Shown in pieces: positions 59,956 to 64,000 of a stretch of DNA of 64,000 nucleotides. Within the stretch, counting starts at the first letter, position 1. Every line of letters begins with the position of its first letter. The stretch spans positions 682,001 through 746,000 of the forward strand of contig NZ_JBANRL010000001.1 of NCBI RefSeq assembly GCF_037154015.1, in the 5' to 3' direction. Below the pieces are notes generated by a model that did no database searches, was not told the origin of the DNA, and saw only the letters and a list, made by a program, of their open reading frames with translations. A program made the translations under genes and the position numbers. The DNA comes from Altererythrobacter aquiaggeris. GTDB lineage: Bacteria > Pseudomonadota > Alphaproteobacteria > Sphingomonadales > Sphingomonadaceae.

Positions 59956-60029
59956 AATCGCAGTTCGCTGGCAATGATCACGCGAACCACCTATATTGCG
60001 ATAGAACTCTAGTGAAAGAGAATTGAGCC

Positions 60030-60263
60030 ATGGGACTGAGTGTCTGGCAATTGCTGATCGTCGCCGTTGTTATTCTGGTCTTGTTCGGTCGCGGCAAGAT
60101 TTCGGAAATGATGGGTGAATTCGGTAAAGGTATCAAGAGCTTCAAAAGCGGGATGGCTGAAGAGGCCGATGAAAAGCCTGTCGATCCCGCGGCCCGTCTG
60201 GAAGGTCCGGCACCCCCCGCGAGCGCAAAGAACGATACCAAAAGCACCCATCGCACTGACTGA
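60030..60263 (+). CDS. tatA: Twin-arginine translocase subunit TatA
   Basis: This 77-residue pore-forming subunit of the Tat protein export system has one N-terminal transmembrane helix ([17 protein letters not shown]). The amphipathic helix [18 protein letters not shown] follows, and the tail is disordered and charged. The FG-K hinge is typical of TatA/TatE. It is followed by tatB after 23 bases and tatC after that, an arrangement that builds the complete translocon. Confidence 0.95.
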
Positions 60264-60286
60264 CGAACCAAGAGCCGCACCGCGCC

Positions 60287-60703
60287 ATGTTTGATATCGG
60301 TGCCTCCGAATTATTGCTGCTGGTGGTGGTCGCGGTGCTGGTGATCGGGCCAAAAGATATGCCTCTCGCCCTGCGAACTGCAGGCAAGTGGATGGGCAAG
60401 ATACGCCGGGTTTCCGGACACTTTCGCGCCGGCATCGATACCATGATCCGCGAGGCGGAAATGGAAGAGCACGAGCAAAAGTGGAAAGAACGCAACGCCA
60501 AGATAATGGCGCAAACACCGGCGGGCGAAATGGGACCTTTGCCTGACGACGTCTGGGATCCCGAACCCTCCGCCAGCACCGGTGCCGAAGGAGCAGTTGT
60601 CCCGCAAGAAGATGGTCAGGCAGACCTGCATGAAAGTGACGATCGCCAGTCGCGCGCCGGAAATGCCGATGAACCGCCGCTTCCTTTCGGCAAGCCGGAC
60701 TAG
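60287..60703 (+). CDS. tatB: Twin-arginine translocase subunit TatB
   Basis: This 138-residue TatA-like partner forms the substrate receptor with TatC. It starts MFDIGASELLLLVVVAVLVIGPKDMPLA, with the TatB-type FDIG and a G-P-K hinge, then an amphipathic helix (LRTAGKWMGKIRRVSGHF) and a long acidic tail. It lies between tatA and tatC with short gaps (23 and 18 bases). Confidence 0.95.
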   Translation: MFDIGASELLLLVVVAVLVIGPKDMPLALRTAGKWMGKIRRVSGHFRAGIDTMIREAEMEEHEQKWKERNAKIMAQTPAGEMGPLPDDVWDPEPSASTGAEGAVVPQEDGQADLHESDDRQSRAGNADEPPLPFGKPD

Positions 60704-60721
60704 GGGGCCGGGCAATAAATC

Positions 60722-61522
60722 ATGGCATTCAGCATCAAGGATATAGATGACAGTCAGGCGCCGTTGCTCGATCACCTGATCGAATTGCGCGGGCGGCTGG
60801 TGCGGGCTGTGCTGGCTCTGCTCGTTGCCTTTGGCGTGTGCCTGTATTTTGCTGACGAGATCTTCGGATATCTTGTCAGACCGCTGACCGCTGCATTCCC
60901 GCAAGGGGAGGGGCGGTTGGTCTATACCAAGCTCTACGAAGCGTTCTTCGTGGAGGTCAAGGTGGCATTATTTGCCGGTTTTTTTCTGAGCTTCCCGATC
61001 ATCGCAAACCAGCTTTGGGCGTTCGTCGCCCCGGGTATGTATGCAAAGGAAAAAAAGGCTTTCCTGCCTTTCCTGATCGCCACTCCGATCCTTTTCACGC
61101 TCGGCGCTTCATTGGCGTATTTTGTTGTGATGCCCACTGCATTCCGGTGGTTTCTGGGGTTTGAAGGCGACCGCGGCGGGCTCAATATGGAGGCGCTGCC
61201 GGCCACGGGTGATTATCTGTCGCTAGTCATGCAGTTCATTTTGGCGTTTGGAATCAGTTTCCTGCTTCCCGTTCTGCTGCTCCTGCTCAACCGCGCGGGG
61301 ATCGTGACGCGCAGTCAATTGCTGGCTGCGCGGCGATATATCATAGTCGCCATTGTTGCCGTGGCGGCCATTATCACCCCGCCTGACGTGATTTCGCAAG
61401 TCATGCTCGCGATACCGATCATGTTGCTGTTCGAAGGTTCGCTTGCGCTGATGTGGTTCAGCGATCGCAAGAAAGCGAAATCCGCCGTGCAGTCCGGCGT
61501 TGAAGGCGACGAAACGCTTTAA
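60722..61522 (+). CDS. tatC: Twin-arginine translocase subunit TatC
   Basis: This six-helix receptor of the Tat translocon reads twin-arginine signal peptides. The protein has 266 residues. The N-terminal PLLDHLIELRGRLVRA carries the conserved E-L-R. The periplasmic loop contains YTKLYEAFFVEVKVALF and FPIIANQLWAFVAPGMYAKEKK, which hold the F-P and P-G-L/M-type motifs of the family. A TPPDVISQ motif follows in the fifth helix region. It is the last gene of the plus-strand cluster. Confidence 0.96.
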   Translation: MAFSIKDIDDSQAPLLDHLIELRGRLVRAVLALLVAFGVCLYFADEIFGYLVRPLTAAFPQGEGRLVYTKLYEAFFVEVKVALFAGFFLSFPIIANQLWAFVAPGMYAKEKKAFLPFLIATPILFTLGASLAYFVVMPTAFRWFLGFEGDRGGLNMEALPATGDYLSLVMQFILAFGISFLLPVLLLLLNRAGIVTRSQLLAARRYIIVAIVAVAAIITPPDVISQVMLAIPIMLLFEGSLALMWFSDRKKAKSAVQSGVEGDETL

Positions 61523-61580
61523 CAAGGTGTGCTGGCAAGCGATGTACGCGCCATGCTTTCAAACGGGATTTGCTGCAGAC

Positions 61581-61605
61581 AAAAAAACGGGGCCATTTGG
61601 CCCCG
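61581..61605 (-). terminator. Intrinsic terminator of the 74-residue small protein gene
   Basis: On the minus strand CGGGGCC pairs with GGCCCCG around an AAAT loop and is followed by seven T. It lies 28 bases after the stop of the gene at 61634-61858. It may also limit transcripts from tatC on the plus strand. Confidence 0.87.
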
Positions 61606-61633
61606 CTTTCCAATTCAATCTGTCAAAAAGCGA

Positions 61634-61858
61634 TTATGTGCTGACAGGCGTATCGTCATCGTTACCGGCGGCGACGATGATGCCGGCGATAATCGCTGCA
61701 GCAGCGAGAACGGCGAGGATAATTCCGCTGCCGCCTTCGAGGTTGCTCTTTTCAGCAGCCGGTGCCGAAGTACGATCTGAGTTAGCAGCCTGAGCCACTA
61801 CTGGTGTAGCAATCAAGCTGAGTGCAGCAGCTGCTGCAGCCATGTTACGAATAGTCAT
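61634..61858 (-). CDS. Small secreted/membrane protein with acidic tail (copy A)
   Basis: This 74-residue protein has a signal peptide with AQA-A as likely cleavage site (MTIRNMAAAAAALSLIATPV then VAQAA). A 20-residue Ser/Pro/Glu spacer is followed by a Gly-flanked transmembrane segment (IILAVLAAAAIIAGIIVAA), and the tail reads GNDDDTPVST. TAGGAGAC precedes the start and a strong terminator follows. It is paralogous to the next gene, sharing signal, spacer with R-x-x-AP, helix and acidic tail. I do not know a named family. Expression signals look strong for such a small gene. Confidence 0.8.
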   Translation of the reverse strand: MTIRNMAAAAAALSLIATPVVAQAANSDRTSAPAAEKSNLEGGSGIILAVLAAAAIIAGIIVAAGNDDDTPVST

Positions 61859-62039
61859 TTTTGTCTCCTATTAGGACAACGCTTCAAAAACTTGGGAGTG
61901 CAATATGCGAAGGAGCCGATCGTTTCAACCCCTAAAGTGCTGGCATCGCGCTCAATTCAGGGGAAAAAATCGAACACCGCAGAAGCGTATCCCATTAACA
62001 ACAGTAGGATTTCGCTTCAGCGCAATTCTTTCAAATCAA

Positions 62040-62267
62040 TCAGGCGCTGGCAGGCTCATCATCGTCATCGTCGGCGATAATGAAAATTCCGGCGGCAATC
62101 GCGGCAACCGCCAGGGCCAGTAGCAGGAGGTTGTTGTTATTACCCCCCATTTCGCTGGCGGCACTTACCGGGGCTGCTGCACGTTGTGCGTCTGCAGCTT
62201 GTGCGACTGCCGGCAAAGCTGCAAGGCCAAGTGCAGCGATCGATGCAGTGAATTTAGAAAACATCAT
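62040..62267 (-). CDS. Small secreted/membrane protein with acidic tail (copy B)
   Basis: This 75-residue paralogue of the 61634-61858 gene is separated from it by 181 bases. Two adjacent ATGs (62267 and 62264) follow a GGAG site. The signal ends AVAQAA, the spacer contains RAAAPVSAASEMGG and an Asn run, the membrane segment is LLLLALAVAAIAAGIFII and the tail is ADDDDDEPASA. After signal cleavage the acidic tail would face the cytoplasm, against the usual charge preference, so topology deserves testing. Function unknown. Confidence 0.8.
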   Translation of the reverse strand: MMFSKFTASIAALGLAALPAVAQAADAQRAAAPVSAASEMGGNNNNLLLLALAVAAIAAGIFIIADDDDDEPASA

Positions 62268-62433
62268 AATTCTTCTCCAGTGCCGCCAAGTTGCGAGTTG
62301 TCTGTACGCAAACCGGCAAGGTTTTTTCAAAGCATAACTTCTGGTAGCTTCATTGCAGGCAATTAAGTCGCTTTAGTTACGGACAGGTTAAATTGCACAG
62401 CCGGTGAGGCCCACAATCCATAACCGTGTCGCC

Positions 62434-64000
62434 TTAACGGGCATCGAGGTTCAAATGTTCCGATAAATGCGAAAATTCCTTGCGTCCGGCGATCCAGGTT
62501 TCAAGCACCCTCGTCTCGCGCAGATCAGCGGGTGACACCATCAGCGGATCGCGGTCCACAAATATAAAATCGGCCCACTCGCCCACCACAAGCCGCCCGA
62601 AACGCCCCTCGGCAAAGCCTGCAAAAGCGGCCCCCGCCGTATAGGCTTCCAAGGCCGCTTCGCGCGATACAGCTTCTTGCGGATACCATCCGCCATATGG
62701 CTGGCCATCGGCGTCCGTCCGGGTCGCCGCCGCTGCCAGACCTGCGAATGGATCAAGCTGTTCGACAGGTGCGTCAGTGCCAAAGGCCAGCCTTGCACCC
62801 GCGTCACTGATGCTCCGCCAGGCATAGGCACCCACCAGCCGCTGCGGATCAAGCCGCGCTTCTGCCATCGTCCTGTCAGAGGTTTGGTGAACCGGCTGCA
62901 TCGATGCGATGATGCCAAACTTGCCGAACCTGGCGATGTCAGCCGGATCGACGATCTGCGCGTGTTCGATCCGCCACCGCCGGTCGCCGTTATATGTTTC
63001 CGACATTTCTTCGATAGCATTCAGCAGGTCGGCATTGGCCGCATCACCAATTGCGTGGACTGCCACCTGGAATTTATCGAGCGCGGCGCGGCTCATCATG
63101 TTGCGCAGTTGCACCGGACCCGTAACGGCCAGCCCGCGCTGTCCGGGTGCGTCGGCATAGTCCGCTTTCAATGCCGCGCCGCGTGAACCCAGCGCGCCAT
63201 CGACATACAGTTTTACTCCATTGAGCCGCAGCCGGTCGCCATAGAGCCATGGTGTCGGGCCGGGGCCGCCGATCAGTGTCATTTGATCGGTGCCCGCCGC
63301 ATAGGACATTATCCGCACGCGCAAACCGCCAAGGTCACCCGCACGGCGGAATGCCTGCCAGTCAAATATGTCTGTTCCCATGTCGGACATCGCCGTGACG
63401 CCATTTTTCAGCAACAGTTCCTGCGCTTTGCCCAGCGCTAAGTCATAATCTTCAGGCCGGCGTGCAGGTTGCTTGCTCGCGACCAGCCCCATAGCCTCGT
63501 CAACCAACACTCCGGAGGGCGCCTGCGATCCGGCAAGGCGTTCGATTCGCCCGCCAGCAGGGTCTTTGGTTGCGGCAACGACACCGCCTGCCTGCAAGGC
63601 CAAAGTATTGGCCCAGCCGGCATGTCCATCCACCCGGCGCAGCCATACCGGCCGGTCAGAAACAATGCCGTCAAGTTCTGCGGCTGTCGGGAACCGGCCA
63701 AGGCCCCAGACTTCCTGATTCCAGCCATTGCCGACAATCCAGGGCAGGTTCGGATTGGCTGCCGCATATTCGCCGATCATCGCCTGCGCTTCCGCGAGCG
63801 ATCGGGTCCCCGAAAGATCAAGTGCCATCGCGCCAAACCCGATGCCCATAATATGCGCATGAGCATCGATCATGCCCGGCAGCATTACTTTTCCGCCGCC
63901 ATCCAGCCGGAAATCTACCTTGTCAGGCGCTTTCTCGCGCCCATGCAGAACCTGTTTGATGCGGCCATCATCATCGAGGACCAGACCTGTAAAACGATCG
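62434..64000 (-). CDS. Amidohydrolase, YtcJ-like (5' truncated)
   Basis: This is a metal-dependent amidohydrolase whose N-terminus lies beyond the window end. The frame is open to base 64000, giving about 522 residues here. The metal-binding motif PGMIDAHAHIMG opens the catalytic barrel, HAIGDAANADLLNAIE and RRWRIEHAQI supply later histidines, and FGTDAPVEQLDP holds the metal-binding aspartate. The pattern matches the YtcJ/AepA branch (family of about 550 residues). Members are often exported and their substrates are seldom known. Upstream genes are not visible. Confidence 0.88.
   Translation of the reverse strand, partial: DRFTGLVLDDDGRIKQVLHGREKAPDKVDFRLDGGGKVMLPGMIDAHAHIMGIGFGAMALDLSGTRSLAEAQAMIGEYAAANPNLPWIVGNGWNQEVWGLGRFPTAAELDGIVSDRPVWLRRVDGHAGWANTLALQAGGVVAATKDPAGGRIERLAGSQAPSGVLVDEAMGLVASKQPARRPEDYDLALGKAQELLLKNGVTAMSDMGTDIFDWQAFRRAGDLGGLRVRIMSYAAGTDQMTLIGGPGPTPWLYGDRLRLNGVKLYVDGALGSRGAALKADYADAPGQRGLAVTGPVQLRNMMSRAALDKFQVAVHAIGDAANADLLNAIEEMSETYNGDRRWRIEHAQIVDPADIARFGKFGIIASMQPVHQTSDRTMAEARLDPQRLVGAYAWRSISDAGARLAFGTDAPVEQLDPFAGLAAAATRTDADGQPYGGWYPQEAVSREAALEAYTAGAAFAGFAEGRFGRLVVGEWADFIFVDRDPLMVSPADLRETRVLETWIAGRKEFSHLSEHLNLDAR

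Follow-up and report, generated by a model that had tools for sequence, protein, structure and literature searches.

The adjacent genes W1 and W2, in the window (the whole 64,000-nucleotide stretch of DNA that was analysed), encode members of a lineage-specific family of putative Sec-exported, membrane-anchored mini-proteins. The best explanation that we can offer for this family, and one put forward tentatively even in its broad form, is that its members are membrane-anchored adaptors or acceptors of envelope-glycan enzymes. The family, multi-copy and common in a large environmental bacterial family, is matched above cut-off by no model of Pfam or NCBIfam. Through its modular C-terminus and the association with glycan genes, it would provide a testable entry into the handling and anchoring of surface polysaccharides.

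Two Mini-Protein Genes Beside tatC

The original prediction took W1 and W2 (Table 1) for tandem paralogs, and a search with W2 did recover W1 (E = 1.6e-10), the two being ~45-47% identical. Most of the architecture that it ascribed to the pair is indeed common to both, namely a signal ending AQA-A, an R-x-x-AP motif (RTSAP and RAAAP), one helix and a DDD-x-P-x-S tail (DDDTPVST and DDDEPASA), but Gly lies on both sides of the helix only in W1; the W2 helix is preceded by GGNNNN and followed by Ala-Asp. An AlphaFold2 model of W1 from 21 sequences, whose low confidence (mean pLDDT 64) restricts its use to helix limits, places helices at residues 4-29 and 44-64 and gives the tail no secondary structure.

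The strong terminator predicted after W1 was corroborated by folding, as none of 200 shuffled sequences was as stable as the hairpin found there, although the consensus terminator scan did not report it. Its T run lies on the W1 side and the tatC side has just CTTT, so that the terminator is oriented for W1; similar hairpins occur 3' of three other paralogs of this genome. High expression, which had been read from the terminator, does not follow from it. The promoter scan returned no sigma-70 promoter. A structured RNA at this locus was rejected, there being no Rfam match in 60000-64000, and chance open reading frames are excluded by the paralogs and the dN/dS values given below.

Table 1. Features of the W1/W2 locus in window coordinates, and M48 peptidase genes beside family members in the coordinates of their own loci.
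Feature	Position	Strand	Details and basis
tatA-like gene, slot context	60030..60263	+	Pfam TatA_B_E
tatB-like gene, slot context	60287..60703	+	Pfam TatA_B_E, 20.6 bits, just below the cut-off of 21
tatC, convergent neighbour, conserved slot	60722..61522	+	Pfam TatC, E 2.1e-71
Intrinsic terminator hairpin 3' of W1	61582..61611	-	-21.6 kcal/mol, z = -4.1
W1 mini-protein gene	61634..61858	-	74 aa; open reading frame and homologues
W1 tail, residues 65-74	61637..61666	-	GNDDDTPVST; family tail statistics
W1 hydrophobic helix, residues 44-64	61667..61729	-	AlphaFold2 helix 44-64
W1 linker, residues 25-43	61730..61786	-	DRTSAP and KSNLEGG; near-invariant Arg29, Ala32, Ser38 (alignment A2)
W1 signal peptide (putative), residues 1-24	61787..61858	-	sequence; probable cleavage AQA|A; AlphaFold helix 4-29
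W2 mini-protein gene	62040..62267	-	two adjacent ATGs; 75 aa if read from the first, 74 from the second
W2 tail, residues 66-75	62043..62072	-	DDDDDEPASA; alignment
W2 hydrophobic helix, residues 47-65	62073..62129	-	sequence; homology to W1 helix
W2 linker, residues 25-46	62130..62195	-	QRAAAP and ASEMGG; alignments A1, A2
W2 signal peptide (putative), residues 1-24	62196..62267	-	sequence; probable cleavage
Amidohydro_3 protein, other slot flank	62434..64000	-	runs off the window; Pfam on the full gene in locus L195
M48 peptidase neighbours (five genera)	L185 1993-3141; L250 4460-5449; L251 4417-5478; L255 4244-5422; L257 2807-3838

Family Conservation and Distribution

A search with W2 found six short members in its own genome, W1 and W2 included, and a later one with a 132-aa homologue added a 125-aa variant, making seven. 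An IS1595-type transposase (L194 3007-3951) adjoins one of these paralogs, at G000:C1:1661231. Members are built from a signal peptide, a linker of the DRxxAPxxxxSEL type, a hydrophobic helix and an acidic tail that mostly ends in PxSx; the linker, ~20 residues long, is rich in Ala, Ser, Pro and acidic residues. Across the 25 sequences of alignment A2, Pro19 and the Ser one residue from the C-terminus are invariant, and Arg29, Ala32 and Ser38 nearly so.

Tail statistics come from sequences found with tail-containing profiles, after 3 of 155 without a tail-like end had been dropped. At least three acidic residues are present in 143 of the remaining 152 tails, and 135 of them lack Lys and Arg; one of the 152, a 175-aa sequence, is a non-member and was removed before the count on 123 non-redundant sequences. 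In that set Ser is penultimate in 112 members and precedes xG in 6 more, and, with the last residue numbered -1, 91 have Pro at position -4 and 99 have Asp at -6.

The close homologues tested are under purifying selection, as judged from dN/dS values of 0.05-0.15 in seven close pairs. W1 gave 0.22 and 0.11 against two same-genus relatives, in comparisons whose synonymous sites were close to saturated. One same-genus gene pair shares 62-66% identity with W1, and another, which sits in the tatC slot, 58-61% with W2. By these pairwise identities, the duplication probably predates the split of those genomes.

At E <= 0.001, a 25-sequence profile gave matches in 187 of the 298 genomes sampled from the same GTDB family (weak, individually uninspected matches down to E 0.001 included) and in 63 of 91 genera. 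Up to eight copies were found per genome, a number that may be low because at most 19 candidates were scored in each. Sphingopyxis, Blastomonas, Pontixanthobacter, Erythrobacter, Altererythrobacter, Sphingorhabdus and Alteriqipengyuania are among the named matching records. A class-wide sample gave matches in 9 of 289 genomes, four of them of the same family; the other five matches stop short of the tail end. A tail profile matched 62 of 196 genomes of the order, and all 62 belong to the same family, the share of other families among the 196 being unstated. The plasmid records searched gave no match.

That no known family had been recognised in the pair agrees with our searches, in which W1, W2 and 25 members had only sub-threshold matches to Pfam and NCBIfam. 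The TrbC/VirB2 pilin model (PF04956) reached 17.7 bits against a cut-off of 27.9, with a best E of 0.0031 among the 25 members and 6 of 25 at E up to 0.1, all below cut-off. The UrcA family (TIGR04433) was rejected at 15.1 bits against a cut-off of 25, over residues 6-31 only. No description of the family was recognised in the literature searched, which covers subscription papers thinly, and as far as this literature, Pfam and NCBIfam show, the family is undescribed. Unnamed exported proteins, whose assignment to this family would require their sequences, are reported in the accessible part of a top-down periplasmic proteome of Novosphingobium (PMC3608174).

The Helix-Tail as a Module

The C-terminal helix and tail do recur on different, somewhat longer proteins, variants of 86-132 aa, the longest carrier among those inspected having 132 aa. 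Carriers of 130-132 aa occur in genomes G001 and G002, and those of 90-125 aa have a Cys-containing GCVLP stretch or other N-terminal parts. Profile A4 includes the tail of the 130-aa variant, which inflates the later score of that variant; profile A1, made from six paralogs of the genome under study, had found both long variants independently. Frames of 100-165 aa were inspected in part. Long open frames of 252, 761, 841 and 1254 aa, from a tail-profile search of 89 genomes, match without the last tail positions and were rejected as long carriers, as were frames of 286 and 225 aa, in each of which the frame stays open upstream of a short family gene. The DNA pattern for DDxP[..]S[AP]-stop matched 11 times among 24 genomes, always in a family gene and always within the same 4 genomes. 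Its reversed control had 13, none in those 4 genomes, and with 13 control against 11 true matches the tail pattern has no global enrichment.

Gene Neighborhoods

The commonest slot of the family is the one occupied by W1 and W2, between tatC and an amidohydrolase gene. The tatC match and a member match are no more than 621 bp apart in at least 28 of 44 genomes, these being the genomes found in both match lists (member and tatC) plus one added from the class-wide search. Other members lie beside genes for envelope glycans. One short paralog of the same genome lies between a PMT-type mannosyltransferase and a Cys/Met-metabolism enzyme, a slot that recurs in other genera; here the PMT gene adjoins one for a GT2-GtrA/DPMS protein. 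In several genera members stand in polysaccharide clusters, beside Wzy_C proteins and/or a Bac_transf glycosylphosphotransferase, and several of these clusters also have Wza/Wzc-like genes nearby. The 125-aa variant of the same genome fits this pattern: 98 bp separate it from the preceding Bac_transf gene and 62 bp from the Wzy_C gene that follows. Sugar-nucleotide genes near members comprise UDP-glucose/GDP-mannose dehydrogenase, epimerase and UDP-GlcNAc 2-epimerase (by Pfam for L212 and L241).

Peptidoglycan enzymes recur as well. All five GCVLP-type variants have an operon with a YkuD L,D-transpeptidase at ~1 kb, and in genus g1 a MltB-like lytic transglycosylase (SLT_2) lies beside members. 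At loci L200-L204 the GCVLP-type variant, a small exported-looking protein (~130-160 aa) and the YkuD L,D-transpeptidase form a conserved trio; the L203 copy of the small protein had no Pfam match. In five genera, members have an M48 peptidase gene as their closest neighbour, and all five of the M48 neighbours scanned exceed the Pfam M48 cut-off, two of them also a PDZ cut-off. M48 queries matched at 6 of 58 non-tatC loci (one partially) and at none of 40 control loci. Near Wzy-adjacent variants, an asparagine-synthase gene was seen in two genera (L207 6378-8814 and L208 8960-10975, by Pfam only in L207), accompanied at L207 by a transglutaminase-like gene. This pair recalls the maturation genes of lasso peptides.

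The glycan association was compared with random 8.5-kb windows. A glycan gene lies within 4.2 kb at 21 of 58 non-tatC loci (18 genera), compared with 1 of 79 random windows, and peptidoglycan enzymes were found at 5 of 58 and 0 of 79, respectively. The queries were 23 glycan, 3 peptidoglycan and 2 slot-marker proteins, and a locus was counted if the query of another genus matched; same-genus queries were ignored for member loci and kept for controls, whereby the PMT and SLT neighbours in the genome of W1 and W2 count among the loci without a match. Three of 69 loci, two of them with Wzy neighbours, were dropped because no member was called in them, and control window L279 8501-17000 was left out because the random draw contained a family member. 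No glycan query matched at 37 of the 58 loci, and no queried family at all at 32. The p value of 1.8e-8 exaggerates the association, as query families and loci were picked after the neighbours had been seen and several loci share one orthologous slot. The enrichment is therefore a lead with a control and not a clean test.

Possible Function

If the family serves envelope-glycan enzymes, the signal peptide would be removed, leaving a mature protein of ~50 residues that the helix would anchor in the inner membrane and that could pair there with enzymes active on the periplasmic face. These partners would chiefly be enzymes that polymerise or transfer surface glycans, such as Wzy_C ligases and the PMT-type mannosyltransferase, and for one subgroup an L,D-transpeptidase. 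The mini-protein might be a small adaptor in the membrane or itself accept the glycan, different paralogs would serve different partner enzymes, and recognition could lie with either the linker or the PxSx tail. The recurrent PMT, Wzy_C/Bac_transf, YkuD and SLT_2 slots, the excess of glycan genes over control windows, the selection on the sequences, the conserved Ser of the acidic tails and the seven members in one genome argue for this; most non-tatC loci lack a glycan match, however, and W1 and W2 themselves occupy the tatC/amidohydrolase slot, although tatC may be only a neighbour of theirs.

Published systems speak on both sides. In the accessible text of one source, pilin genes are adjacent or close to 21 of the 31 PglL candidates (PMC3643930). 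According to the portions consulted of another source, the residue modified by TfpO and TfpM is a C-terminal Ser or Ser/Thr, whereas the sites favoured by PglL lie in disordered, Ala-rich sequence that has P and E/D close to the Ser; the same source counts against our reading in that tight linkage of PglL and substrate genes is not widely seen (PMC12645811). In a cluster of Sphingomonas sp. LM7 the hypothetical gene prmB, which adjoins the initiating transferase, is dispensable for the polysaccharide, as reported in the part available (PMC11340318), and this counts against a glycan role if PrmB belongs to the family. In the most specific version, which we consider improbable, Ser residues of the linker or the PxSx tail would receive surface glycans from periplasmic Wzy/WaaL-like and PMT-type transferases, each paralog being matched to one pathway. 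If true, it would mean a lineage-wide system of protein-anchored surface polysaccharide in sphingomonads.

The nearest rival to a glycan role is that the PxSx carboxy-terminus is a sorting, processing or degradation signal, by which a periplasmic protease, perhaps via a PDZ domain, would cut, release or control the protein, a PEP-CTERM-like logic with an acidic tail. PDZ domains bind extreme C-termini, and it is there that the strongest constraint is found. The C-terminus is modular, on different N-terminal parts and in up to eight copies per genome, and it occurs in polysaccharide contexts; PEP-CTERM proteins are also multi-copy and exopolysaccharide-linked. The best lead is the exported M48/PDZ-type protease, a candidate recognition enzyme given its position as nearest neighbour in five genera and the absence of M48 matches at control loci. 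We still hold recognition by a protease to be rather unlikely, since most of the loci examined have no M48 neighbour, the tails are acidic and not basic, the carriers inspected are short, no NCBIfam CTERM model matched and a periplasmic PDZ reader requires the tail to be outside. A plainer account, unlikely as well if by no means far-fetched, gives these small membrane proteins a structural or regulatory part in the envelope, in stress, in membrane order or as a Tat accessory, with no glycan link and with neighbours that reflect inherited gene order. The commonest slot need not be functional, and more than half of the other loci have no queried neighbour; against this stands the recurrence in differently arranged polysaccharide clusters of several genera, so rare in control windows.

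Topology bears on all of this. Should the signal be cleaved and the helix act as a stop-transfer anchor, the acidic tail would be cytoplasmic and its Ser beyond the reach of periplasmic transferases. In single-pass helices, acidic residues are depleted inside and enriched outside, according to the part consulted of PMC5525207, a rule taken here apart from its bacterial data. By analogy, a cytoplasmic acidic tail would be unusual, and an acidic tail after the helix contradicts the usual charge rules of membrane proteins, which makes topology a clean question. It decides whether the tail Ser or just the linker Ser is open to periplasmic transferases, and whether the tail is open to a periplasmic PDZ domain. 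The same charge rule (PMC5525207, as far as available) suits an alternative in which the helix is no stop-transfer sequence and a fully exported protein self-assembles through its small-residue helix into, for instance, outer-membrane or surface oligomers or pilin-like threads. A weak resemblance to TrbC/VirB2 pilin points the same way, but it falls short of the cut-off (17.7 against 27.9 bits), the helix is strongly hydrophobic, with a mean Kyte-Doolittle value of 2.7 over 19 residues, and no pilus-assembly genes were noticed among the neighbour clusters identified, which are part of all clusters; such export has, in our view, little probability. Being tiny, hydrophobic, tandem and multi-copy, the proteins might also be membrane peptides with self-toxic or bacteriocin-like activity, comparable to the type I toxin families. 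Here the cleavable-type signal peptide, the purifying selection, the conserved slot and the lack of an Rfam match in 60000-64000 make a toxin scarcely credible.

Comparison With Known Systems

Partners or acceptors of glycan enzymes, as we tentatively see the family, resemble several known systems in part. With the TrbC/VirB2 pilin (PF04956) they share a signal peptide followed by an Ala-rich helix, but they differ in the acidic tail, and no conjugation genes were noticed among the neighbours identified; with a score below the Pfam cut-off (17.7 against 27.9 bits), membership was rejected.

The likeness to protein-sorting signals proposed originally holds in that the helix-tail behaves as a module and the family, like PEP-CTERM, is multi-copy and partly exopolysaccharide-linked; it does not extend to an established sorting signal, as the carriers inspected have at most 132 aa and the constraint lies after the helix. 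PEP-CTERM proteins are multi-copy, mostly in single-gene operons and found in organisms with exopolysaccharide genes, as the consulted part of their description states (PMC1569441). As in the PEP-CTERM/exosortase system (TIGR02595, EpsH; PMC1569441, same part), there is a signal peptide, a C-terminal helix, a short charged tail, several copies and an exopolysaccharide link. In contrast, the mini-proteins are tiny and have an acidic tail and a conserved PxSx end. A PEP motif directly before the helix is absent from the 25 sequences of alignment A2, and where PEP-CTERM has a basic cluster after the helix, 135 of 152 tails are without Lys or Arg and are acidic instead. With neither of these motifs and no NCBIfam CTERM match, membership in PEP-CTERM was rejected.

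Pilin acceptors carry a type IV prepilin N-terminus. The mini-proteins have a Sec-type signal, their Ser is penultimate and not last, and glycosylation of the family is a proposal. Adjacency to Wzy_C or PMT genes is seen in other genera and, within the genome studied, for one short paralog and the 125-aa variant, W1 and W2 lying beside tatC instead. Some members, as small membrane proteins beside a WaaL/Wzy_C-type enzyme, resemble the pilin acceptors of O-oligosaccharyltransferases (TfpO/TfpM/PglS/PglL) as these are presented in the parts consulted of PMC3643930 and PMC12645811. The family further shares with such acceptors a Ser at or near the C-terminus, an Ala/Pro/acidic context around Ser and a tail that has no secondary structure in the low-confidence AlphaFold model.
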